A stretch of 64,000 nt of DNA from Runella sp. MFBS21 (GTDB taxonomy: Bacteria; Bacteroidota; Bacteroidia; Cytophagales; Spirosomataceae), in NCBI RefSeq assembly GCF_029433105.1, contig NZ_JARNTW010000001.1, forward strand, positions 682,001 through 746,000, given 5' to 3'. The position numbers and the translations under genes were made by a program. The notes under the pieces are model-generated. The model was not told where the DNA came from and made no database searches. It worked only from the letters and a program-made list of their open reading frames with translations. Position 1 is the first letter of the stretch. Every line of letters begins with the position of its first letter. Positions 39,846 through 51,255 of the stretch are shown here, one piece after another.

Positions 39846-40688
39846 ATGAAAACAAAATGGGTACTCATGGCATTGGTCGTAGGACTGGGAGTGGTCTCGA
39901 CTGCTAATTCTCAAGAAGACACTAAACAACAGACCAACAAAGACAAAGTAACCGTAAGGGTACGAATGACCGAAGAAAAAGACGGTAAAACAGAAACCAT
40001 CGAGCGGTCTTATACCTACAACAACCTCACAGGTGACGAACGTGAGTCGAAGATTAAGGCCATCGTGGATTCGCTTAAAGGCAATGACAAAAATGCTACC
40101 AATCGGCGGATGAGTATCATCATCGAAGAAGGCGACGGGATGCCTGAGCGTAGAATCGGTTCGCGCGAAGAGCGCACCCAAAATCGGACTCGTGAATATC
40201 GCTCTGGCCCCAACAACAACCGTTCAGAACAATGGAATAACAACAGAGACGATAAATTTCCTTTTGATGAGGAGGCATTTGCCGACCGCATGAAACGCAT
40301 TGAGAAAAAAATTGAGCCTCAAATGCGTAAATTGGAGCGCAATATGGAAAACTGGAGCCGCGATTTTGAACCAAAGTTTAAAGAATTTTGGGAAGGCGAC
40401 GTCAACTTCAGAGGAAGTCAGAAGCCGGCTTCGGTGCGAGGGCTAGAGGCTTTTCCTAACAACCCCGAAAAAAATGAATTAAATCTGCGTTTTTATGCGC
40501 CTATCAAAGGCGATGTACTGATTACCGTAACCGACACCAAAGGAAAGCAAATTGCCAAGAAAGAAGTAAAAGATTTTTCGGGGGATTTTGTGGGGCAGAT
40601 AGACCTCGGCAAAAATCCTAAAGGAACTTATTTTGTGAGTGTAGTACAAAATGAAGATGGCGCCGTTAAGCGCATTGTAATAGAATAA
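39846..40688 (+). CDS. Secreted charged protein with T9SS C-terminal sorting domain
   Basis: This 280-residue protein has a signal peptide (MKTKWVLMALVVGLGVVSTA), a strongly charged middle (RMKRIEKKIEPQMRKLERNM) and a C-terminal domain at about 200-280 (LEAFPNNPEKNELNLRFYAP, ending VKRIVIE) of the type A sorting kind used for export by the type IX system. It lies divergently from the two-component pair with a 183-nt gap, a layout common for an envelope-stress regulator and its target. The middle region has no recognised fold. Confidence 0.78.
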   Translation: MKTKWVLMALVVGLGVVSTANSQEDTKQQTNKDKVTVRVRMTEEKDGKTETIERSYTYNNLTGDERESKIKAIVDSLKGNDKNATNRRMSIIIEEGDGMPERRIGSREERTQNRTREYRSGPNNNRSEQWNNNRDDKFPFDEEAFADRMKRIEKKIEPQMRKLERNMENWSRDFEPKFKEFWEGDVNFRGSQKPASVRGLEAFPNNPEKNELNLRFYAPIKGDVLITVTDTKGKQIAKKEVKDFSGDFVGQIDLGKNPKGTYFVSVVQNEDGAVKRIVIE

Positions 40689-40699
40689 AAAAAGCGTTT

Positions 40700-41535
40700 T
40701 TATTTAGCTTTTTCAAGTTCTTGAATTACTTCATGTAGTGTAATTTGATGAGGATAATAGGCATAAGCTTCATTATCCTCATTTTGTTTATAGCCTTCTT
40801 CAAATGATTTTTTTGCAATTTCCAGATAAGACTTATATTCTTTTGCCGTGTCTTTATTAATCATTGCTAAGTAAAAATTAGTATCAGGAAATTGAGGGAA
40901 TTGTCTTAAACATTTTTTGAGATATATTTCTGCCTTTTTATAATTTTTCATTTCATAATAAACAATACCACAATAAAGCAACGTATTGTAATGTATGTTT
41001 TTAATACTATCACCTTTTGTTTGAATTTTAATGTCTTCTAAAAAATTTTGTTCTGCTTTTTTAAGATTTTTTAATTCCAAATAACAAAGCCCTTTATAAA
41101 AAGAATAAGAATGATCCATGACAAAAATATGAGGTGCTATTTTTTGAGCTAAATCAAAATCTATAATTGCCCCTTTATAATCTTTAGAAAATATACATTT
41201 CAAAAATGCCCGATAACTCACCCATCTTTCAGGGTCGTATTGTACTGCTTTGTCTTCAAGAGGGAAAGCACTTCCATAATCCCCATTTTTAATATAAGGC
41301 AAGCTTTTTGTTGATAAGCTCTTGCGATGTTGGGGCAAATAGAAATTAAGCTATCAAGGTAGACTTGCCATTTAGGGTGGTTATACCCAAATTTTTCCGC
41401 TCCATTATCAATATAGTGCTCGACAAGGCTATCTTGAACTTGCTTGGACGAGCAATCAATTATTTTTGAGTTTTGACCTAAGCAAATGATTTGAAAATAA
41501 AAAAGGCTAAGGAATAACAGCGACAATTTGGCCAT
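40700..41535 (-). pseudogene. TPR-repeat protein with a single frameshift
   Basis: Two frames read as one protein. The 5' part (signal peptide MAKLSLLFLSLFYFQIICLG, to CPNIARAYQQK) and the 3' part (SLPYIKNGDYGSAFPLEDKA to the stop at 40700) join at a run of five T at 41305-41309 (AAAAA on the coding strand). One additional A would restore a continuous frame of about 278 residues. The 3' part has TPR units such as YKGLCYLELKNLKKAEQNFL and YCGIVYYEMKNYKKAEIYLK. It may be a true frameshift, a homopolymer sequencing error, or a slippage site. It is the last gene of the RiPP-like run. Confidence 0.78.
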
Positions 41536-41992
41536 GATGAATTTTATAAGAGATGAATGCGGTATAAGAAAGAGGTATTATGTTTTTATATTTGACTAGT
41601 TTCCAATCTTTTAATGACTTTGTAAATTCATACAAACTTTGAATAGTTTCTACTTTAAACTTCTTAGGTTGGTAATTTTCATCGGTTTGCATCAATTTTA
41701 CATAGCTTATTTCGCCACTACAATTGACTCTAAACCGAAAAGTAACGTAACCGTTTTCCGTCAATTTTATATTTCTTTGATTCAAAAATGAAGAGGCATT
41801 TGTTTGAATCGTCGTTGAGCTTCGAGGATATTTCGCGTCATAACTGTAATAGTAGGATTCTCCTTTTGTATCAAAACAGTTTTTTCCAAGAACTAATGTT
41901 GTATCCATGTACTCTCCGTCAGGACGAACATAGATTTGACTTTGGGCAGCCAAGCTAGCAAGAAATAGAGAAAGTAATAGGTATCTATTCAT
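41507..41992 (-). CDS. Secreted TonB-C-like protein
   Basis: This 161-residue protein has signal MNRYLLLSLFLASLAAQSQI. Its middle resembles a TonB C-terminal domain: ENGYVTFRFRVNCSGEISYV, which is the V-x-F-x-V-x-x-x-G-x-I-x-x-V pattern, followed by WKLVKYKNIIPLSYTAFISY. There is no N-terminal membrane anchor, so it is probably periplasmic rather than a true TonB. It follows the HlyD gene after 14 nt and overlaps the TPR gene by 29 nt. Confidence 0.68.
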   Translation of the reverse strand: MNRYLLLSLFLASLAAQSQIYVRPDGEYMDTTLVLGKNCFDTKGESYYYSYDAKYPRSSTTIQTNASSFLNQRNIKLTENGYVTFRFRVNCSGEISYVKLMQTDENYQPKKFKVETIQSLYEFTKSLKDWKLVKYKNIIPLSYTAFISYKIHHGQIVAVIP

Positions 41993-42006
41993 AAATGGTT
42001 TTAGTG

Positions 42007-43299
42007 TTATTGCTGATTTAAAGCTCGTTTGACCTGATAAAATACTCGCTCAATAAGCCTCAAATCTTCGGTAATGATTTCGGCGGATGCTACCATTCCC
42101 GTTTTGTAAATGAGTTGTTTATTGGTGCCAGTTTTTAAGCCATTTGGCAAATTGACTGTTGCCAAAAAAAATTGACTATCAGGTGTAGGAACCTGTGAGA
42201 TAGTAGCAATTTGTCCCTCTACTGCCCCAAACTCCTCAAAAGGATACCCTTGAAATTTTATTAAAACGCGTTGCCCTCTTTTTACTTTTCCAAAATTAAC
42301 CTGAGGTATGTTTATTTCCCCAAAATAACGGCCACTAGTTCCCCCTACGTACATAATTTCTGTCCCCGCCCGTAGCGATTGATTTTCTTGCAGGGTCATT
42401 GAAAAATTTGTTTTTCCATCCGTTGGAGCGCGTAAAATAAAACGTCTTTGCCAATTTTCCAGTTCGCTTCTCAATGTATTCAACGCCTGAATAAACTGCG
42501 CTTTTTGCTCAATTGCCTGACGCTCAAGCTCCGTCAATTCTCTTTGTTTTTGGGTTTGAGCAGTTATATTATAAGTGATACTCATTTCCAACTGCCTGAC
42601 AGGCAGTTGTTTATTGATGTATTTACTTTCTTCCCGTTGGTATTCTAAGGGAGAAATTACTTTTTCTTTGTAGAGTTTTACGTTGATTTCAAATTCTTTT
42701 TTTGCCAACTCTGCATCACGTTTGTGCAGTTCTAATTGGCCTAAAAGCTGTATTCTATTTTGTTGTAAATCCTTAAATTCGGCGCTTAAATAACTTTTAC
42801 GTTTGTTATAATATTCGTTAGAAAACAACGCCAACGTTTGCGTGTAAGATTGCATGAAACTTTGATAAGTTGTTTGTAACTCCCCCAATTTTTGAAACCG
42901 ATTGGCAGGGAATATATCAAGCTTATCGAAACTACCTGATTCAATTACTGTGTGAAGGTTCTTTAAATCTTTTTGTAATAATAAAACTTGCGAATGGTCG
43001 GCAGTAGCTTCTATAAAACCTATGATTTGGTCTTGTCTAATAATTTGATTGTCAGTAACAAATAACTTAATTAATCGACCCTCAGCACGTACCACAACAG
43101 GTTTTGGAGCGTTGTCGGAAGTGAGTCTGAAAGCTGCCGTAACGATAGTAGGGTAATGTACAAACCAACTAATAGTCCCAAGCGACAACAATACAAAGAA
43201 AATGACGGTAATTCCCCAACGCAAAATCCAAGCGGGAATTTGCTCCATGTAGTCGCGGATAGCCTCACTATTTACTTCTAATTCTTCTATTTTCGCCAT
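42007..43299 (-). CDS. HlyD-family membrane fusion protein for peptide export
   Basis: This 430-residue adaptor has one membrane helix at about 25-50 (WGITVIFFVLLSLGTISWFV), a lipoyl/barrel-sandwich strand with VVVRAEGRLIKLFVTDNQII, a long coiled-coil hairpin at about 95-285 and the closing strand with RRFILRAPTDGKTNFSMTLQ. It bridges the C39 ABC transporter to the outer membrane. Its start overlaps the transporter stop by 1 nt (TAATG). It is part of the export module for the GG-leader precursor at 49483. Confidence 0.9.
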   Translation of the reverse strand: MAKIEELEVNSEAIRDYMEQIPAWILRWGITVIFFVLLSLGTISWFVHYPTIVTAAFRLTSDNAPKPVVVRAEGRLIKLFVTDNQIIRQDQIIGFIEATADHSQVLLLQKDLKNLHTVIESGSFDKLDIFPANRFQKLGELQTTYQSFMQSYTQTLALFSNEYYNKRKSYLSAEFKDLQQNRIQLLGQLELHKRDAELAKKEFEINVKLYKEKVISPLEYQREESKYINKQLPVRQLEMSITYNITAQTQKQRELTELERQAIEQKAQFIQALNTLRSELENWQRRFILRAPTDGKTNFSMTLQENQSLRAGTEIMYVGGTSGRYFGEINIPQVNFGKVKRGQRVLIKFQGYPFEEFGAVEGQIATISQVPTPDSQFFLATVNLPNGLKTGTNKQLIYKTGMVASAEIITEDLRLIERVFYQVKRALNQQ

Positions 43300-45506
43300 T
43301 AGTTCCCCAATTCTAGCTGATTCTTTACTAATGAATAATAATAGCCACGTTGTGATACCAATTCTGGATGAGTTCCACTTTCTACAATTTCGCCTTGGTT
43401 CAATACGATAATTTGGTCAGCATTTTTGACTGTACTTAAGCGATGAGCCACTACTACCACTGTTCTGTTTTTGAAAAACCCTTCTAAATTTTTCATAATG
43501 ACGGCTTCATTATTAGCATCTAAGGCACTGGTAGCTTCGTCGAAAAATAAGAATTCAGGATTTTTATACACAGCACGGGCAATGAAAATCCGTTGCCGTT
43601 GGCCGCCACTGATTCCCATTCCACTGGCTCCAATTCGGGTGTTAAAACCATTGGGCAATTCTTCTACAAAAGATTCAATATTGGCGATTTCAACTGCTTC
43701 CTGAAGTTTTGAGCGATTGACAAGGCCATTAGAATCTGATTCACTGATATTTCGGGCAATAGAATCAGCAAAAACATAGCCATCCTGCATTACTACACCG
43801 CATTGGCTTCGCCAAAAGTTATAACTCAAATTTTTGAGGTTTATTTTTCCAATACTGATTTGGCCGTTTGTAGGCTCATAAAACTTTAAAAGCAATTTCA
43901 ACAAGGTAGTTTTACCGCTTCCACTCGCTCCTACAATCGCGGTTACTTTCCCTTCGGGTATGGTAAGACTGATGTTTTTCAACACCAATTCCGAGCTGCT
44001 GCTTCCGTACCGAAAATCTACATTTTGAACTTGAATGGTTTTGTGAGTGGGCAGCTCGTTTATAAGTGGGTCATCAAGCCGTTCTTCATTAAGTTTATCA
44101 TGAATTTCAGAAAGTCGCTCAATGCTTATTTTGGCATCTTGGTAACTGCGTACAAAGGTGATAAAGTTGTTGAGAGGGACGTTCATTTGCCCTACAATGT
44201 ACTGCACTGACAGCATTCCCCCCAATGAAATTTGTCCATCTATTACGGCTTTGGCCGCAATAAAACTAATGAACATATTCTTGACTTCGTTGATAAAACG
44301 CCCTCCTTCATTTTGAGTTTGAGAGAGGGCCAAACTGTTGATATTGAGCCGAAACAAACGGGTTTGAATCGCTTCCCATTCCCAACGGCGGCGTTTTTCG
44401 GAGCCGTTGAGTTTGATTTCCTGCATTCCGTTTATTAATTGAATCGTGCTGCTCTGATTACCAGAAGCTTGGTCAAAATAACGGTAATCTATTTCAGCCC
44501 GCCGTTTGAGAAACAGAAAAATCCAAGCCACATAAAGACTTGCTCCTAGTAAGAAAACCCAGAAAAGTTGGGCATTAAAATAAAACAGGATGCCGCCAAA
44601 AATGAGAAATGTGACCGTCGAAAAAAGCACATCTAAAGTAGTGGCCGAAAGAAAACCCTGCACGCGACTATGATCTTGAATGCGTTGCATGATGTCACCT
44701 GTGCTTTTGGAATCAAAAAAAGCCATGGGCAAATTCATTAGTTTCATCAAAAAATCGGATAACATACGGAGATTGATACGGCTCGTAACGTGCATCAAAA
44801 TCCAACTCCGTATCACGTTTACGCTTGATTGTGAGATGAATAGCACTAACTGCGCGAGCAAAATCAAATACACAAAGTTAAGATTGCGCGTATTGATTCC
44901 CGTATCTACCACTTGCTGCGTCAGAAATGGAAAAATCAATTGTAAACCCGTGACTACCGTAAGGCCAAGTAAAACCTGAAATCCATAGGCATGGTACGGC
45001 CGAAAATAACGCCCCAGAAATCCCCAAAACGATTTTTTAGGAGATGATGATTCGTTTTTCTGTTCAAAAAATAAGGGAGTGGTTTCAAATAACAACAGCA
45101 CTCCTTCAGCATCTTCCTGCGTGGCTTTGTTGGGTATCCACCCTTTCAGGAAATCCTGTTTGGTATAAGTGATAAGTTGGTAGGCAGGGTCTCCCACGAC
45201 TACTTTCTCGGGGGTAGCTTCATAGATTACTACATAATGCCGCTGCCGCCAATGCGCAATGCACGGCAAGGGAATTTGGGAAGACAAATCGTCATAGGTA
45301 ACATTGAGCGCAAGTGTGCTAAATCCAATTTTTTCAGCAGCATCGGCCAGTCCTCCCATGGTAGTGCCGTCGCCGGCTAAGTTGGATATTTCGCGCAAAT
45401 AAGCTGCCTCAACCGAGCGACCATGATACTTACTGATCATCCGTAGGCAAGTAGGGCCACAGTCTCGTGTGTCTAATTGTTTATAGAAGGGGTATTTTTT
45501 ACGCAT
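43299..45506 (-). CDS. ABC transporter with N-terminal C39 peptidase (double-glycine leader processing and export)
   Basis: This 735-residue fusion cuts the leader after GG and exports the core. The C39 domain (1-140) has catalytic C16 in QLDTRDCGPTCLRMI, H90 in RHYVVIY and D106 in VVGDPAY. The membrane domain spans about 160-470. The ATPase shows Walker A GASGSGKTTL (about 524), signature ISGGQRQRIFIA (about 632) and Walker B FLFFDEATSALD (about 652). All key residues are intact. It sits 11 nt downstream of the HExxH-like gene and directly before HlyD. Confidence 0.96.
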   Translation of the reverse strand: MRKKYPFYKQLDTRDCGPTCLRMISKYHGRSVEAAYLREISNLAGDGTTMGGLADAAEKIGFSTLALNVTYDDLSSQIPLPCIAHWRQRHYVVIYEATPEKVVVGDPAYQLITYTKQDFLKGWIPNKATQEDAEGVLLLFETTPLFFEQKNESSSPKKSFWGFLGRYFRPYHAYGFQVLLGLTVVTGLQLIFPFLTQQVVDTGINTRNLNFVYLILLAQLVLFISQSSVNVIRSWILMHVTSRINLRMLSDFLMKLMNLPMAFFDSKSTGDIMQRIQDHSRVQGFLSATTLDVLFSTVTFLIFGGILFYFNAQLFWVFLLGASLYVAWIFLFLKRRAEIDYRYFDQASGNQSSTIQLINGMQEIKLNGSEKRRRWEWEAIQTRLFRLNINSLALSQTQNEGGRFINEVKNMFISFIAAKAVIDGQISLGGMLSVQYIVGQMNVPLNNFITFVRSYQDAKISIERLSEIHDKLNEERLDDPLINELPTHKTIQVQNVDFRYGSSSSELVLKNISLTIPEGKVTAIVGASGSGKTTLLKLLLKFYEPTNGQISIGKINLKNLSYNFWRSQCGVVMQDGYVFADSIARNISESDSNGLVNRSKLQEAVEIANIESFVEELPNGFNTRIGASGMGISGGQRQRIFIARAVYKNPEFLFFDEATSALDANNEAVIMKNLEGFFKNRTVVVVAHRLSTVKNADQIIVLNQGEIVESGTHPELVSQRGYYYSLVKNQLELGN

Positions 45507-45517
45507 GATTCAAGGCA

Positions 45518-46702
45518 TCAAATACCACTTTTAGCCATAAATTTTTCAAACGGATTTATTTGTGAAAAATGGAAATAACTGAATTCTGAGGGTTGATTAG
45601 ATAAGTCAAAAACGCCTTCTAAGTGTTCTATTTTTTTGATATAATCAGCGCACAATGTATCTAAAAGTTGATAAATTTCTTTTCCCCTATTAGTATATAC
45701 GTCGTCTAAATATAATAATTCCAGCCCTGTACGAAATCGTTTTTTTAAATCGGTAAATCGTCCTAAAAACTCATGCTTTTGAATACCCAAAAAAATATCT
45801 GCTTTGTACAACTCAAAGAAAGCTTCGTAGCGTTTGGCTACGGTGTACAGTCCATGAAAAGCCGAAAAAATACTTCTTTCTTCGCTTTGAAGTCCAATCA
45901 CATTTCCTAATTGTGTTTGTTCTACATCAATTTTGAAATAATTAGACCGATTAAACAGCATAATGTTAAAAGTATTGTGAGAACATTGATGTATCAACTC
46001 TTCTAGAAAAAAGATTGTTCCATTAGTTGGAATAGTACTCAAAAAAGCACAACCTGTAGCCCCGATATTAGCAAAACAATTAACTTGAGGGTTGAAAAAT
46101 ACTGATAGTGTTCGATTGGTTGAGGTTATTTCTTTGCAGAGGTTTGGTAGATGAATTTTCAGTATTTCTAAGGCACGGTCAACGCTTTGTATATGACGGT
46201 GTGTCGTTTGGGTAACTTCAATATCTAAAATTTGTCTATTGCCGTTGGCTTGGTAGAACGAATTTAGTAAAGGATTTTTATGCCTATAAATTTCTATTTT
46301 CCCATCTAATACAGTTAGACAAGGTAAAAAGCCGTATGAGATGTTCTTTAATTGGTATGTTTCGCCGTCACATTCTAGCAGTAACTTTTGATTTGAGTAT
46401 TCAGTATAAAAATAACCTACTTGCGGAACATACACTGTACCATCTGCATCTGAAATAACTTCAAAGCATCCTTGTTTTTCAGTAAAATACGCGCACAAAA
46501 TTTGTTCCAATGTTGTATAGGAAGGACCACCTGAACTTAAATATGCAATCAAAAGGGGTTCTAAAAATGCACTATCATTTTCAAAATCAAGGCGTTCAAA
46601 GATGGTCTCGTTAGTTCTGTAAAGAGCCGCTTTGATATAATCAGAGATGGCCATTTTTCCCAACTGAATTTCTTTTTTGAACAATATATCAAGGTTGTTC
46701 AC
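45518..46702 (-). CDS. Protein resembling alpha-ketoglutarate HExxH-type peptide beta-hydroxylases, with HQxxH
   Basis: This 394-residue protein has no signal peptide. Residues 230-246 read IFFLEELIHQCSHNTFN, placing H238 and H242 in an HxxxH pair, and a later H283 lies in RSIFSAFHGLYTVAKRYEAF. That order (HExxH, then an HG-containing helix) matches the RiPP-associated HExxH family of alpha-ketoglutarate-dependent peptide beta-hydroxylases, except that Glu239 is Gln. In those enzymes the motif binds iron, so Gln may be tolerated. It lies between the amidohydrolase (14-nt overlap) and the C39 transporter. The family call is by motif pattern. Confidence 0.68.
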   Translation of the reverse strand: MNNLDILFKKEIQLGKMAISDYIKAALYRTNETIFERLDFENDSAFLEPLLIAYLSSGGPSYTTLEQILCAYFTEKQGCFEVISDADGTVYVPQVGYFYTEYSNQKLLLECDGETYQLKNISYGFLPCLTVLDGKIEIYRHKNPLLNSFYQANGNRQILDIEVTQTTHRHIQSVDRALEILKIHLPNLCKEITSTNRTLSVFFNPQVNCFANIGATGCAFLSTIPTNGTIFFLEELIHQCSHNTFNIMLFNRSNYFKIDVEQTQLGNVIGLQSEERSIFSAFHGLYTVAKRYEAFFELYKADIFLGIQKHEFLGRFTDLKKRFRTGLELLYLDDVYTNRGKEIYQLLDTLCADYIKKIEHLEGVFDLSNQPSEFSYFHFSQINPFEKFMAKSGI

Positions 46703-48023
46703 GGTAGTTTTGTTTGCAAGTTTGTATCAATTCATTAATTTGTGAGGCTGAAAACCATTGCCCACGTTTCATTACACCTTTTATTTTTCGTAAATTTTCA
46801 ATATCTTCAAGTGGATTGGCTGCAAGCAATACCAAGTCGGCCACGTTGTTTTTCTGAATACTTCCCCATTGGTTCGCTTCGCCCATGTACTCGGCTGCAT
46901 TAAGGGTGGCAGCCCGCAAAATATCATATTCAGGGAGGCCTGCTTTCTTGTACCATTTCATTTCGTCAATCATTGCTAAACCCGGTACTTGAAAAACTGT
47001 AGAAGCATCTGGACTCACCAATAATTTACATCCATTTTGGTGTAGTTTACTGAGTATTATTAGTTTCTTTTCGATGTATTCTTTTTCAACTTGTTGCTCT
47101 TTTCTTAAAGAATCAGGGTGTTTTTGGGCTTGCTTAGCAAAATAATCATCAAAGGTTTTTGTCCAACTTGCTACCAGCCCTGTGGGTAAACGGTCTAAGC
47201 CCGGGCGTTTTTTTAGCTCGTTATAGGGTACTTGTGTATAATTTACAAAATACCAATCCAATGTAGGGCAATTGTAAACCTGCCGGGTTTTAGTTTGTTC
47301 TATGGCGGCAGAGAGTTCAGGGCTGTTGATAGATAAATTTTCATAACCACCTAAGTGCTCAATGCTGTTGAGTCCTTTGCTGAGTGCGTGGGCAATGGTT
47401 ACGCCATTGGGTACGTGCCCCGACAGTTTAAAACTGTGATTTTGTGCCAATTGTGCCAACGTATCAAACCAAGCAACTGAGGGTACACTTAAGACTTTGA
47501 GTGACTGATAGCCTTGACTTTGGTAGCTTTTTAGCAGTTTTTGGAGGGAGTCACCTCGTATCCATACTCTGCTGGCATAAAATGGTGGTGCTGAAGTATA
47601 AATATCGGGATTAGTTTTTTGAGTGGCTTCTTTCTGGATGACCAAATCGGCATCAGCCCCTCGCATCGAACGCAGGTGAGTAACGCCGGCAGCTAATTGC
47701 AATTTCAAAAATTCATCAGTACCATAGCCATACTTCGTTTGGCGTGGGATATGTACGTGCATATCTGCTAATCCCGGTATGAGGTATTGGTTAGTAGCGT
47801 CAATGAGAGTTGCCGATTTATACCTTTTTTTACTGCTTTTTACAATACGCTCTATCACACCATACTTTACTACTACATCTTGATTATACAGTATTGTGTT
47901 TTTGTGAATAGGAATGATATTTACGTTTTTGAAAATTGTTGTCTGTTGGCCAAATAACTTACACGTAACGAGAAAAAATAAACAAGCACTACTGAACTTC
48001 GAACGAATTGAATGATATGTCAT
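46689..48023 (-). CDS. Secreted amidohydrolase (imidazolonepropionase-like superfamily)
   Basis: This 444-residue protein has a signal-like start (FSSACLFFLVTCKLFGQQTT). The metal-binding HxH is in LIPGLADMHVHIPRQ, further ligands are in KLSGHVPNG and SIEHLGGYENL, and the late Asp is in LLVSPDASTV. Members hydrolyse amide or ring bonds, often in modified peptides. It overlaps the HExxH-like gene by 14 nt and lies 5 nt after the TlpA-like gene, so it belongs to the peptide operon. It might process the exported core or degrade a competing peptide; neither is shown. Confidence 0.88.
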   Translation of the reverse strand: MTYHSIRSKFSSACLFFLVTCKLFGQQTTIFKNVNIIPIHKNTILYNQDVVVKYGVIERIVKSSKKRYKSATLIDATNQYLIPGLADMHVHIPRQTKYGYGTDEFLKLQLAAGVTHLRSMRGADADLVIQKEATQKTNPDIYTSAPPFYASRVWIRGDSLQKLLKSYQSQGYQSLKVLSVPSVAWFDTLAQLAQNHSFKLSGHVPNGVTIAHALSKGLNSIEHLGGYENLSINSPELSAAIEQTKTRQVYNCPTLDWYFVNYTQVPYNELKKRPGLDRLPTGLVASWTKTFDDYFAKQAQKHPDSLRKEQQVEKEYIEKKLIILSKLHQNGCKLLVSPDASTVFQVPGLAMIDEMKWYKKAGLPEYDILRAATLNAAEYMGEANQWGSIQKNNVADLVLLAANPLEDIENLRKIKGVMKRGQWFSASQINELIQTCKQNYREQP

Positions 48024-48028
48024 GATTA

Positions 48029-49414
48029 TTATTTTGAAATTAAAGGATTATCTTTACTATGAAGGTTATAAAATGGTTCTAAATCTTCTACACCAATTCG
48101 CCTAGCTATAATTTTATGGTTTTTATCTACAATATAGATAGTAGGAGTTGAAATAGCATCATAGTCTTTCCGATAGTCTACTTTTCGTGAAACAGTTAAT
48201 CCATACCCGTTGGCTAAATTTTGCCATTTATTATCACTAATAAATTTTTTCCAGTCTTCTTCACTTCCTTCGATAGAAATTGGCATCACCTGAACTCCGT
48301 AATTCCTATATTTGTCATAAAAGGATTTTAACTTAGGAGCAGCCTCTTTACAATGACCACAAGAGGGGGAGTAGAAAAATATTACATTAAAATCTCCATT
48401 TAGTTCATAGATATAACTAAAACTGCCACGTATATTTTGAACTCCAATGTTTGGGATTTCTCTATTTAATAATAGAGGCTTTAAAATGCTTATTTTTTCT
48501 TTTAATGCCTTAAGTGTAGAAGTGTCGTTCAAAGTTATGATTTCTGTTAAATAGTAATTTTCTACCATATGAACAAATACTCCTTCTGTACCCATAATTT
48601 TAGGAATTTCATACTGGTTTGTTATATATGAGATGATGTATGAAACAAAATCTTTTTGATATCCTTTCTGTGCCTTATTTATTAGTTGATTGGCACTTTT
48701 TATAATAGAGTCTTCTCTTTGAATAGTTAAATTCTTAATGTACCTTTCTAATTTTTGATGTAAAAAAGGTGTTTTAGCTAATCTTGTGTCGGAAAAATCA
48801 AAATTGTCCCAGTAATGAGCTTTGTAATATTCAAATAATTTTGTACTATCAATTGATCCATTAGGCAGTTTAGGGGCATTGCTAATATCGGTGTCTGCTG
48901 CGGTTTTTAATAGCTTTGTAACATAATACCCTTTGTTCTTGTTTATAAATTTTTCGTAAAAAACTTTGCGTTCATCTAATATGATATTTTGATTTTTAGA
49001 GAGTTTAGCTTCTTTATATTTTTCTTGATTTACCTTCATGAATTTTTGAAAATCATAGAATAATTTATTTTCATGAGAATTCATGATTTTCATTTTTTCT
49101 ATTATATCTGATGTGTCTGTACTGAAGCTAAATTGCTGTGCATCTGAAATAATTAAACTGATAGTTTTGTTACGATTAGGTAATAAGATTTCATATATTC
49201 CTGTGTCTAATTTTTCATTTTTTGAAAAAATTATTCTACCTGTTTTGTCTACTTTGGCAGTGTCTTTGGCATAAAGTTGTGAAGAATAGTGGTTGTATGC
49301 GAGAATACAATTGCCATCGGTTATACCCCGAATTACCCCTTCAATACGATATACTTCTTGACTCAATAGATTTGAGCTATATGTTATTAATAAAGTTATT
49401 AATAGCCTTTTCAT
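48029..49414 (-). CDS. TlpA-like periplasmic thioredoxin with extended N-terminal domain
   Basis: This 461-residue protein has signal MKRLLITLLITYSSNLLSQE, a strand-rich DUF4369-like N-terminal part (YRIEGVIRGITDGNCILAYN), a helical middle and a C-terminal thioredoxin domain with CGHC active site (YSPSCGHCKEAAPKL, about 350) and cis-Pro in DAISTPTIYIV. It could reduce or form a disulfide in the periplasm. The precursor at 49483 has one Cys in its core, giving a plausible substrate by inference. It lies 68 nt downstream of the precursor, across a hairpin. Confidence 0.87.
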   Translation of the reverse strand: MKRLLITLLITYSSNLLSQEVYRIEGVIRGITDGNCILAYNHYSSQLYAKDTAKVDKTGRIIFSKNEKLDTGIYEILLPNRNKTISLIISDAQQFSFSTDTSDIIEKMKIMNSHENKLFYDFQKFMKVNQEKYKEAKLSKNQNIILDERKVFYEKFINKNKGYYVTKLLKTAADTDISNAPKLPNGSIDSTKLFEYYKAHYWDNFDFSDTRLAKTPFLHQKLERYIKNLTIQREDSIIKSANQLINKAQKGYQKDFVSYIISYITNQYEIPKIMGTEGVFVHMVENYYLTEIITLNDTSTLKALKEKISILKPLLLNREIPNIGVQNIRGSFSYIYELNGDFNVIFFYSPSCGHCKEAAPKLKSFYDKYRNYGVQVMPISIEGSEEDWKKFISDNKWQNLANGYGLTVSRKVDYRKDYDAISTPTIYIVDKNHKIIARRIGVEDLEPFYNLHSKDNPLISK

Positions 49415-49432
49415 TTATATCTATCCATTCCA

Positions 49433-49475
49433 TCTCGACAGTAATCGATTATTCATTAGTCTATTACTGTCGAGA
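49433..49475 (-). promoter_or_regulatory. 13-bp hairpin between precursor gene and processing operon
   Basis: TCTCGACAGTAAT and its complement ATTACTGTCGAGA form a perfect stem around a 17-nt loop. It starts 7 nt after the precursor stop and ends 18 nt before the TlpA-like gene. No T run follows, so it is unlike an intrinsic terminator. It may protect the short precursor mRNA or cause partial read-through. Confidence 0.7.
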
Positions 49476-49482
49476 CTTAAAA

Positions 49483-49647
49483 CTAATTTTTTAAAATTAC
49501 TTCTGTTTTAGGGTCAGGAGATCCTGAAGGTGGCGGAAGAATACTTGGCGTGTGGCAATTGTCCAGATTTCCACCCTTAATCGCTTCCAAATTAGCGACT
49601 ACGTTTCCTGACTGTGCCTTTAATTCGGCTAATGATAATCTTTTCAT
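49483..49647 (-). CDS. Double-glycine-leader RiPP precursor, Bacteroidales GG family type
   Basis: This 54-residue peptide was found by reading the gap on the minus strand. Residues 1-26 form a leader (MKRLSLAELKAQSGNVV, then LEAIKGG) that matches the GG-type natural product precursor leader of Bacteroidota (TIGR04149-like). The C39 domain of the transporter at 43299 should cut after GG. The 28-residue core starts NLDNCHTPSILPPPSG, has a single Cys31, three consecutive Pro and an Asp/Lys tail. There is no Thr/Ser run and no lanthionine enzyme here, so the product is probably not a lanthipeptide. Confidence 0.82.
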   Translation of the reverse strand: MKRLSLAELKAQSGNVVANLEAIKGGNLDNCHTPSILPPPSGSPDPKTEVILKN

Positions 49648-49709
49648 GTTGTTTTTATACCAAAGGGGAATAGTGATAGCGATAATGCTTTTTAGCCTTT
49701 GGCGGATTC

Positions 49710-49745
49710 AAAAAAACAAGTAAAAAAACAAGTAAAAAAATAAGC
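49710..49745. repeat. Three 12-bp tandem repeats upstream of the precursor
   Basis: AAAAAAACAAGT occurs at 49710-49721 and 49722-49733 and a variant AAAAAAATAAGC at 49734-49745. They lie 63-98 nt upstream of the precursor start, in the gap between the precursor and the divergent XRE gene. The remainder of that 227-nt gap shows no gene and no clear promoter consensus. Confidence 0.65.
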
Positions 49746-49874
49746 AATTAATTAATTTTATTAAGGTTTTGTTTTTTGTTTTCAAGATAAATAACTAATG
49801 GTGGCGTTGTTGATATAGGTGACTTTTTAAGCTGAATAGGGTCTTAGAGAAACAGCCTCAAACCGAAAAGCCGT

Positions 49875-50264
49875 ATGAGTTTAGGTACTCTTCTTCGTAA
49901 AAATCGCGACCGCTGCAAACTAACAGGGTCAGAAATCGCTGATTTATTGGGGGTATCGCAAGGTACCTATCATAATTGGGAGAGTGGAAAAACCAATCTG
50001 CCGGCCAAATATTTACCCCAATTGGCGGAAATCTTCAAAGTGGAGATTATAGAGCTTATCCCAGCGCGTAATGTGGCTCTAAGTCATGATAGGCCGCAGT
50101 CAGCAAATCAAGAGAAGGTAGCCACGGATTCTGAAGCCAAAGTAGAGCCGCTTGAACTCTACCAAAAACTTTTAGAGAGCAAAGAGGTCGTCATTAGGTT
50201 GCAAACGGAAGAAATTAGGCGATTGCAAAAAAGGCTTGCGGATCTGGAGGCTAACTCATTTTAA
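49875..50264 (+). CDS. XRE-family regulator with C-terminal coiled coil
   Basis: This 129-residue protein has an N-terminal HTH (residues 5-60, TGSEIADLLGVSQGTYHNWE) and a C-terminal coiled coil (VEPLELYQKLLESKEVVIRL, then TEEIRRLQKRLADLE). It has the same plan as the 6331 protein. It is divergent from the RiPP precursor with only 227 nt between the two starts, making it the best candidate regulator of that locus. Confidence 0.87.
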   Translation: MSLGTLLRKNRDRCKLTGSEIADLLGVSQGTYHNWESGKTNLPAKYLPQLAEIFKVEIIELIPARNVALSHDRPQSANQEKVATDSEAKVEPLELYQKLLESKEVVIRLQTEEIRRLQKRLADLEANSF

Positions 50265-50685: not shown

Positions 50686-51255
50686 ATGCTTAACATTGTA
50701 CTTTTTGGCCCTCCGGGTGCGGGCAAAGGCACTCAAGCTGCTAAACTCATCGAAAAATACCAATTGGTTCACATTTCCACCGGAGATTTGTTCAGGATGC
50801 ACATCAAAGAACAAACCGAGCTGGGTAAGCGTGTCAAAGATTTACTGGACAATGGTATCTTGGTGCCCGATTCAGTGACTATCGATATGCTGGAGGAAGA
50901 AGTACAGAAAAATCCTGATGCCAAGGGCATTATTTTTGATGGATTTCCGCGTACTGTACCGCAGGCAGAAGCGCTAGATGCTTTTTTAGCTTCCAAAAAT
51001 GCCTCTATCAAAACCGTATTGCAGCTGGATGTGGACGAAGGCGAGCTAAAACGGCGTATTGCCGAGCGTAAAAAAGTCAGTGGCCGCGCTGATGATGACG
51101 AAGAAAAATTGGTAAAAAGAATCGATGAATATTTTAATAAAACGGTTCATGTGTTGCCTTATTATGAAGCACAAGGTAAGCTTACAGTGGTAAACGGAAT
51201 CGGTCAAATTGAAACTATTTTTGGGAATTTATGCGAGGCAATTGATGCCGAATAA
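50686..51255 (+). CDS. adk: Adenylate kinase
   Basis: Adenylate kinase converts ATP plus AMP to two ADP. The 189-residue protein has the P-loop VLFGPPGAGKGTQAA, the AMP-binding STGDLFR and IIFDGFPRTVPQAEAL, and a short lid (RKKVSGRADDDEEKLVKRID) without zinc-binding cysteines, typical of the short form. The start at 50686 puts the Rossmann strand at the N-terminus. A terminator follows. Confidence 0.98.
   Translation: MLNIVLFGPPGAGKGTQAAKLIEKYQLVHISTGDLFRMHIKEQTELGKRVKDLLDNGILVPDSVTIDMLEEEVQKNPDAKGIIFDGFPRTVPQAEALDAFLASKNASIKTVLQLDVDEGELKRRIAERKKVSGRADDDEEKLVKRIDEYFNKTVHVLPYYEAQGKLTVVNGIGQIETIFGNLCEAIDAE

Follow-up and report, generated by a model that had tools for sequence, protein, structure and literature searches.

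Precursor peptides with GG leaders occur in several described systems. The TIGR04149 family, whose members are modified by radical S-adenosylmethionine (SAM) enzymes, and the Chryseobacterium leader family NF047798 use C39-ABC/HlyD export, and C39-processed bacteriocins can have CPBP-type immunity-like genes beside them. Another group of enzymes, the alpha-ketoglutarate (alphaKG)-HExxH hydroxylases (TIGR04267/IPR026337; ChlH, PflC/PosC, BpmH/BipH and, by structure, SjiH), acts on the precursors of ribosomally synthesized and post-translationally modified peptides (RiPPs) (PMC12636437, PMC12707348, PMC12257519). We analysed an operon in a stretch of 64,000 nucleotides from Runella sp. MFBS21 (contig NZ_JARNTW010000001.1, positions 682,001 to 746,000; hereafter the window), part of a genome of 7.88 Mb. 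Its single minus-strand operon encodes a GG-leader precursor, a TlpA-type thioredoxin, an amidohydrolase, an unannotated enzyme with an HQxxH motif, a C39-ABC exporter and an HlyD adaptor (Table 1). With moderate confidence, we read it as a RiPP operon whose HQxxH enzyme would oxidise a Cys-His pair early in the core, whose exporter would mature the peptide, and whose variable slot gene next to the precursor (TlpA in Runella) may encode a partner of the peptide tail.

We compared 47 loci, namely 46 from a named-genome collection (L-numbers are locus labels) and the window; several are cut by contig ends, and all neighbour counts cover the examined stretches only. The window enzyme has the fold, the HxxxH pair and the downstream Arg of alphaKG-HExxH hydroxylases; unlike these, it carries HQxxH with an acid at position -3, and its system has a GG leader with a C39 exporter and a Cys-His core. 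The LSLxxLK..GG leader and the C39-ABC/HlyD genes resemble those of TIGR04149 and NF047798, but the Cys-His core does not, and only 4/49 and 1/49 precursors matched the two models (best E 0.02 and 0.18). The window precursor gave no match to TIGR04149 at E ≤ 1. An Rce1/CPBP-like gene by the precursor in 10 of the 47 loci, together with the joint change of tail and neighbour, recalls the C39-processed bacteriocins with CPBP-type neighbours, from which the window differs in having TlpA in the slot and an HQxxH enzyme. The earlier note on this DNA had reported no LanB, YcaO or radical SAM enzyme, and our Pfam/NCBIfam scan of ten window proteins agreed, with none among the matches listed. In the PubMed Central library, which lacks most subscription papers, we recognised no description of HQxxH peptide enzymes or of Cys-His GG precursors. 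What is new would be the distinct active site and the probable Cys-His target, within a RiPP system that has an enzyme of the alphaKG-HExxH fold.

The 394-residue enzyme had no Pfam or NCBIfam match at E ≤ 1. An AlphaFold2 model from 51 sequences (an alignment that omits four enzyme fragments, from L051, L061 and L063) had a predicted local distance difference test score of 94.4. It matched SjiH (22ob) at Z 26.1, with a root-mean-square deviation of 4.2 over 343 aligned positions, and the HExxH domain of ChlH (8s5f) at Z 24.4, with 2.8 over 280, while the third-ranked chain reached only Z 8.1; the model thus falls in the fold of the alphaKG-HExxH peptide beta-hydroxylases. Matches at Z 8.1 and below were mostly helical proteins and zincin proteases, which we took as shared topology only. 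Profile-profile comparison of the enzyme family with eight TIGR04267 proteins gave a probability of 99.3 (E 1.8e-19) with HQxxH aligned to HExxH. These eight came from the phylum of locus L043 (10/249 genomes matched, 7 above the cut-off), because the TIGR04267 model matched 0/198 Bacteroidota genomes. The model matched 21 of the 51 enzyme relatives weakly (best E 1.9e-7; at most 30.2 bits in the genome search), and no family member reached its curated cut-off of 40 bits. Because of the structural matches, the profile alignment and these weak matches, we conclude that the enzyme shares the fold and probably the ancestry of the alphaKG-HExxH peptide hydroxylases, without formal membership. In the tree the HQxxH enzymes formed a clade separate from TIGR04267, with support of only 0.565, and sequence searches of the PDB, run with either the profile of the clade or the protein from the window, returned chance-like matches only.

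The active site was compared in 54 intact proteins, that is, 46 clade members with the motif and the eight TIGR04267 proteins. The motif Glu is replaced by Gln in 45 of the 46 members, Glu being found only in L030. An acidic residue (Asp/Glu) stands three positions before the first His in 45/45 Gln proteins and in 0/9 Glu proteins (L030 and the eight TIGR04267 proteins); ChlH and SjiH, in printed structural alignments, have Glu in the motif and no acid at -3. Because Gln and the -3 acid go together, the active-site carboxylate seems to have moved by one helical turn, from HExxH to [DE]xxHQxxH. His238 and His242 are conserved in 46/46 members with the motif, and Arg276 and His283 in 44/46 each; an equivalent of each of the latter two exists in 7/8 TIGR04267 proteins and in ChlH. 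Without the leader, the known HExxH hydroxylase PflC continues to hydrolyse peptides (PMC12636437), an activity that the Gln version should lack.

Enzyme relatives were found in nine of 291 genomes of the order and in six of 395 genomes of the phylum, the own genome included in both. One of the nine, G181 (E 5.2e-4), was dropped as a chance match, since the start of its reading frame reads, by eye, like an aminotransferase. The 46 loci of the named collection are mostly from Bacteroidota, plus three Planctomycetes, Saccharophagus, Marinagarivorans and a zetaproteobacterium, and the closest named relative (88% identity) is in Runella zeae. No close relative was confirmed in viral contigs. C39-ABC was present in 34 and HlyD in 33 of the 47 enzyme loci.

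We then examined the precursors. Open reading frames (ORFs) collected by leader pattern alone, with Cys-His not required, numbered 55, in 38 of the 47 loci. An adjacent Cys-His pair was present in 51 of these, and in 49/55 it lay within the first 13 core residues, against a mean of 2.6 and a maximum of 10 in 2000 shuffles. In 39 of the 51 Cys-His precursors, Cys is the fifth core residue. Four CH-less ORFs were kept in the count of 55, one with a good leader (L022) and three doubtful (L034, L036, L048). Cys-His precursors missed by the leader pattern were found at L024, L029, L043 and L045, so that 42/47 enzyme loci, the window included, have one; the L023 precursor among them is weak, lying 3.2 kb downstream with CH at its very end. 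No Cys-His precursor was found at L049, L051 and L064, nor at L044 and L061, whose contigs start just before or inside the enzyme gene. The core beyond Cys-His is variable, although the pattern CHGxxGxx[GSH]K is common to six precursors (L026, L033, L034, L037, L038, L045). The window core has a single Cys, within Cys-His, and the R. zeae core has one more. In the planctomycete L024, GH takes the place of GG and Cys-His is retained; no C39 gene was seen in the stretches examined of L024 and L059. The precursors of L024 (9577-9903) and of the zetaproteobacterial L059 (9617-9883) have a common tail after Cys-His, GIWI/GVWI.ELVPVF.K.DA. The earlier note was right on the GG-leader precursor and missed Cys-His, the conserved element of its core.

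Several observations link enzyme and precursor. Among 282 genomes of the order, a leader-only profile, free of core residues, retrieved seven at E ≤ 0.002, every one of them enzyme-positive, and a further 16 at E 0.005-0.1, several within long ORFs. The Fisher value for this co-occurrence, 3e-13, is a guide only, as it assumes that the sets of 282 and 291 genomes match. From precursor to HlyD, L025, L026, L033 and L038 contain only exporter genes, the enzyme, and proteins of the 161-residue, tetratricopeptide repeat (TPR) and metallo-beta-lactamase-fold types. A second enzyme copy is found at five loci (L050, L053, L055, L056 and L066; three Kordia, Aureivirga and Mucilaginibacter); the second copies form a clade with support 1.0 and have lost His242 and His283 in 5/5 and His238 in 4/5. 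Among the loci with a precursor found by script, CHxxxCH precursors occur in exactly these five. There the HQxxH copy and the motif-less copy flank the CHxxxCH precursor and might work together as a complex of catalytic enzyme and pseudoenzyme. A relative of carnosine N-methyltransferase, a family that methylates His, is encoded in L022, L023 and L030 (PF07942 E 8e-14 for L030; the others by similarity to L030).

The precursor tail and the slot gene were found to change together. Between the window and R. zeae, one exchanged segment (Table 1) had 49-72% identity in 100-base bins, whereas the other operon bins had 77-98%, except for one 72% bin in the TPR gene; the DNA on either side of the tail-TlpA block is about 90% identical. 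Synonymous divergence (dS) was about 2 for TlpA and 0.84 for the precursor, compared with 0.23-0.57 for five other operon genes. Codons 28 to 33 all differ, yet Asn-Cys-His was retained, and the hairpin after the precursor is replaced in R. zeae by a different hairpin at the same place (z -3.4). In two pairs of loci with like tails (L052/L058 and L039/L020; 86% and 91% identical), slot genes were 60% and 63% identical. In six pairs with unlike tails (0-32%), slot genes were 25-56% and C39 86-99% identical; these six include the Runella pair, and three of them are among the same three Dyadobacter genomes. A tail identity of 32% was read as no similarity because the median identity between unrelated tails is 24% and the maximum 50%. 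The broken L063 gene lowers the enzyme identity of L062 and L063, which is 37%. The slots of the Dyadobacter loci L040 and L048 hold unrelated genes, CPBP-like versus ThiF plus alpha/beta hydrolase; the ThiF-like E1 protein of L048 (1341-2360) stands beside a Cys-His precursor. Overall, the slot held CPBP/Rce1-like proteins, HExxH...E proteins, an aspartyl protease, ThiF plus hydrolase, TlpA, or nothing. Thus the slot gene changes with the peptide tail, and in Runella TlpA and the tail diverge as one block.

TlpA and the amidohydrolase were each found in 2/47 loci, the window and R. zeae, with an amidohydrolase also in one further locus, L017; at other loci the exported proteins that resemble hydrolases or proteases are different ones, or there are none. 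A cluster of 13 metallo-beta-lactamase-fold proteins that have export-like N-termini is spread over 13/47 loci; HxHxDH is present in 10 of the 13, and one of the other three is a fragment. Of the gene order that the earlier note proposed to look for in other Cytophagales, precursor, enzyme and exporter recur there and beyond; TlpA and the amidohydrolase are not conserved partners of the system.

On the reading that we favour, the cytosolic HQxxH enzyme would bind the LSLxELKA..GG leader and, as an iron/alphaKG-type oxygenase, oxidise Cys-His at the core start. Of the possible reactions, beta-hydroxylation, on either His or Cys, would be the likeliest, given that His and Asp are the residues modified by ChlH, a hydroxylase (PMC12636437). 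C39-ABC/HlyD would cut after GG and export the product, and the variable tail may be its target- or receptor-specific part. Since tail and adjacent slot gene are exchanged together, we infer that the slot gene could encode the cognate partner of the tail, acting in self-protection or in tail-specific periplasmic (redox) processing. The idea of a RiPP matured by hydroxylation, already put forward in the earlier note, is consistent with a RiPP-type system in which the only candidate maturase of the operon is related to peptide hydroxylases; of the HExxH-like enzyme proposed there, the hydroxylase fold was borne out, and neither an HExxH motif nor a place in TIGR04267 was. Several points weigh against our reading. 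The window protein has HQCSH in place of HExxH, and it matched TIGR04267 neither at E ≤ 1 nor at E ≤ 5. SjiH has Gln at the position where ChlH and the HQxxH clade carry the downstream His, which might therefore not serve as a metal ligand; the residue is also absent from two members with the motif (Tyr in L038, Asn in L056). Of three Hymenobacter precursors (L022, L023), two have Cys-His at or near the C-terminus, and the distance after GG is therefore not fixed. Small GG ORFs lacking Cys-His occur close to the enzyme in L022, L036 and L041. The co-occurrence of leader and enzyme could merely reflect a shared operon, and the association of CHxxxCH with the paralogue, all in one clade, is for that reason probably one evolutionary event, suggestive but not independent. 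We know of no experimentally tested member of the HQxxH clade.

The main rival to beta-hydroxylation is that the enzyme forms a bond, an oxidative crosslink of the Cys sulfur with the His ring, its beta carbon or another residue. An active-site carboxylate unlike that of known hydroxylases would suit such chemistry, as would a Cys and a His that are constant and adjacent in 51/55 leader-type ORFs; yet we know of no enzyme of the HExxH fold that makes crosslinks, and adjacency in sequence would strain some Cys-His geometries. PMC12636437 refers to an alphaKG enzyme that links Cys to Tyr. On this balance we regard crosslinking as unlikely. Oxidative cleavage of the backbone at Cys-His, with the tail discarded as by PflC/PosC at ARMD, is known chemistry of the fold family (PMC12636437) and would tolerate tails that range from 0-5 residues (Hymenobacter, L047) to 39 (L065). 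The tail pattern shared by six precursors and the joint change of tails and slot genes indicate, however, that tails are probably used, and we consider cleavage very improbable.

Could the HQxxH protein instead be a catalytically dead zincin that binds the leader as a chaperone, or that loads metal onto a peptide whose Cys-His binds it? Zincin proteases are classically inactivated by exchanging Glu for Gln, and Cys-His is able to bind metal. But the His pair is kept in every member with the motif, Arg276 and His283 in all but two each, and the -3 acid in every Gln protein, and the five truly degenerate copies each stand beside a copy with HQxxH; a dead enzyme is thus quite improbable. For TlpA and the amidohydrolase, their absence from 45/47 loci each would fit stress or housekeeping genes that have no link to the system and ended up in the operon by chance. 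Such capture seems to us rather unlikely, as TlpA and the precursor tail differ jointly, in a single block, between the two Runella species, and in other pairs of loci, too, the slot gene follows the tail. A bolder version of the oxygenase reading is that the loci form a new RiPP class with GG-x4-Cys-His cores, in which a zincin-fold oxygenase with its carboxylate moved by one turn, abolishing hydrolysis, performs new Cys-His chemistry, such as a crosslink, and hypervariable tails pass between strains in cassettes of tail plus partner. We put this forward tentatively and think it doubtful as a whole.

The remaining features of the operon are consistent with a RiPP cluster, in that a precursor with leader and core, a dedicated enzyme, which would modify it, and processing and export genes stand in one operon. 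All ORFs named in the earlier note were present on the minus strand, and their labels hold. The exporter matched Peptidase_C39 (PF03412, E 2.9e-32), PF00664 and PF00005 and, with a GG substrate in the operon, has the make-up of a peptidase-containing ATP-binding cassette transporter. The TlpA-type protein scored above the Pfam cut-off for Thioredoxin_8, AhpC-TSA, DUF4369 and DUF5106, with CGHC at residue 352. In the amidohydrolase, HxH/K/H/H/D ligand residues were present by eye, and its top NCBIfam match was Xaa-Pro dipeptidase NF051886, at 80.5 bits against a cut-off of 500. Its gene overlaps the enzyme gene by 14 bases. Export signals were likewise assigned by eye. The 161-residue ORF downstream of HlyD, whose lower coordinate, 41507, opens the range given in the earlier note, and the frameshifted TPR gene also belong to the operon block; the latter is two overlapping frames in the window and one 278-residue ORF in R. 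zeae (L021), reflecting either a real frameshift or an assembly error. The stem-loop after the precursor is a possible attenuator or processing site. Upstream of the precursor (49700-49760), short T-rich tandem repeats (TTTTTTTACTTG), kept in R. zeae, are a possible regulator site. Elsewhere, L036 (9123-12652) has, around the enzyme and ahead of the exporter, extra small GG peptides that have another leader (e.g. TLTELAL...GG) and lack Cys-His, and in L041 (9099-9573) three near-identical small GG peptides with QxSSxIIEDIxGF tails and no Cys-His adjoin the Cys-His precursor.

The operon forms an accessory island. Its flanking gene for a 280-residue protein (window 39846-40688) is present in ten further genomes of the genus, and five of the ten loci were compared. 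In three of the five, this gene adjoins the adenylate kinase gene (window 50686-51255) and the operon is absent, leaving a clean empty site; in the remaining two, unrelated genes follow it.

Table 1. Features of the operon and its edges, in window coordinates
Feature	Position	Strand	Remarks
Precursor peptide	49483..49647	-	54 aa; leader MKRLSLAELKAQSGNVVANLEAIKGG; core NLDNCH + variable tail (...AIKGG/NLDNCHTPS..., slash marking the end of the leader)
Leader up to GG	49570..49647	-	Leader-only profile retrieves enzyme-positive genomes
Conserved Cys-His	49552..49557	-	Core residues 5-6; putative modification site
Stem-loop	49432..49476	-	Between precursor and TlpA genes; approximate limits; z -4.7
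TlpA/ResA-type thioredoxin	48029..49414	-	Exported, 461 aa; slot gene tracking precursor tail
Segment exchanged versus R. zeae	47801..49566	-	Precursor from codon 28, TlpA, first ~200 nt of amidohydrolase gene
Amidohydrolase	46689..48023	-	Exported, 444 aa; Amidohydro_1 above Pfam cut-off
HQxxH enzyme	45518..46702	-	394 aa; GTG start; putative maturase; fold of alphaKG-HExxH peptide hydroxylases
HQCSH motif	45977..45991	-	Residues 238-242; Glu235 one turn upstream
C39 peptidase-ABC exporter	43299..45506	-	Expected to cleave after GG
HlyD-type periplasmic adaptor	42007..43299	-	
161-aa protein	41507..41992	-	Export-like N-terminus; TonB_C at E 0.09 only; relatives in 14/47 loci
TPR protein	40700..41535	-	Frameshift-split in window; relatives in 26/47 loci
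XRE regulator	49875..50264	+	Divergent, at island edge; relatives in 14/47 loci

In summary, a set of Cys-His pair and HQxxH enzyme that recurs in other bacteria would represent a new, testable family of modified peptides. With a precursor and one enzyme, it offers a compact two-gene system in which to probe a branch of the alphaKG-HExxH fold whose carboxylate has apparently been exchanged in nature. The apparent two-residue target in otherwise free cores would be attractive for peptide engineering, and the joint exchange of tail and slot gene may provide a direct route to immunity or receptor partners.

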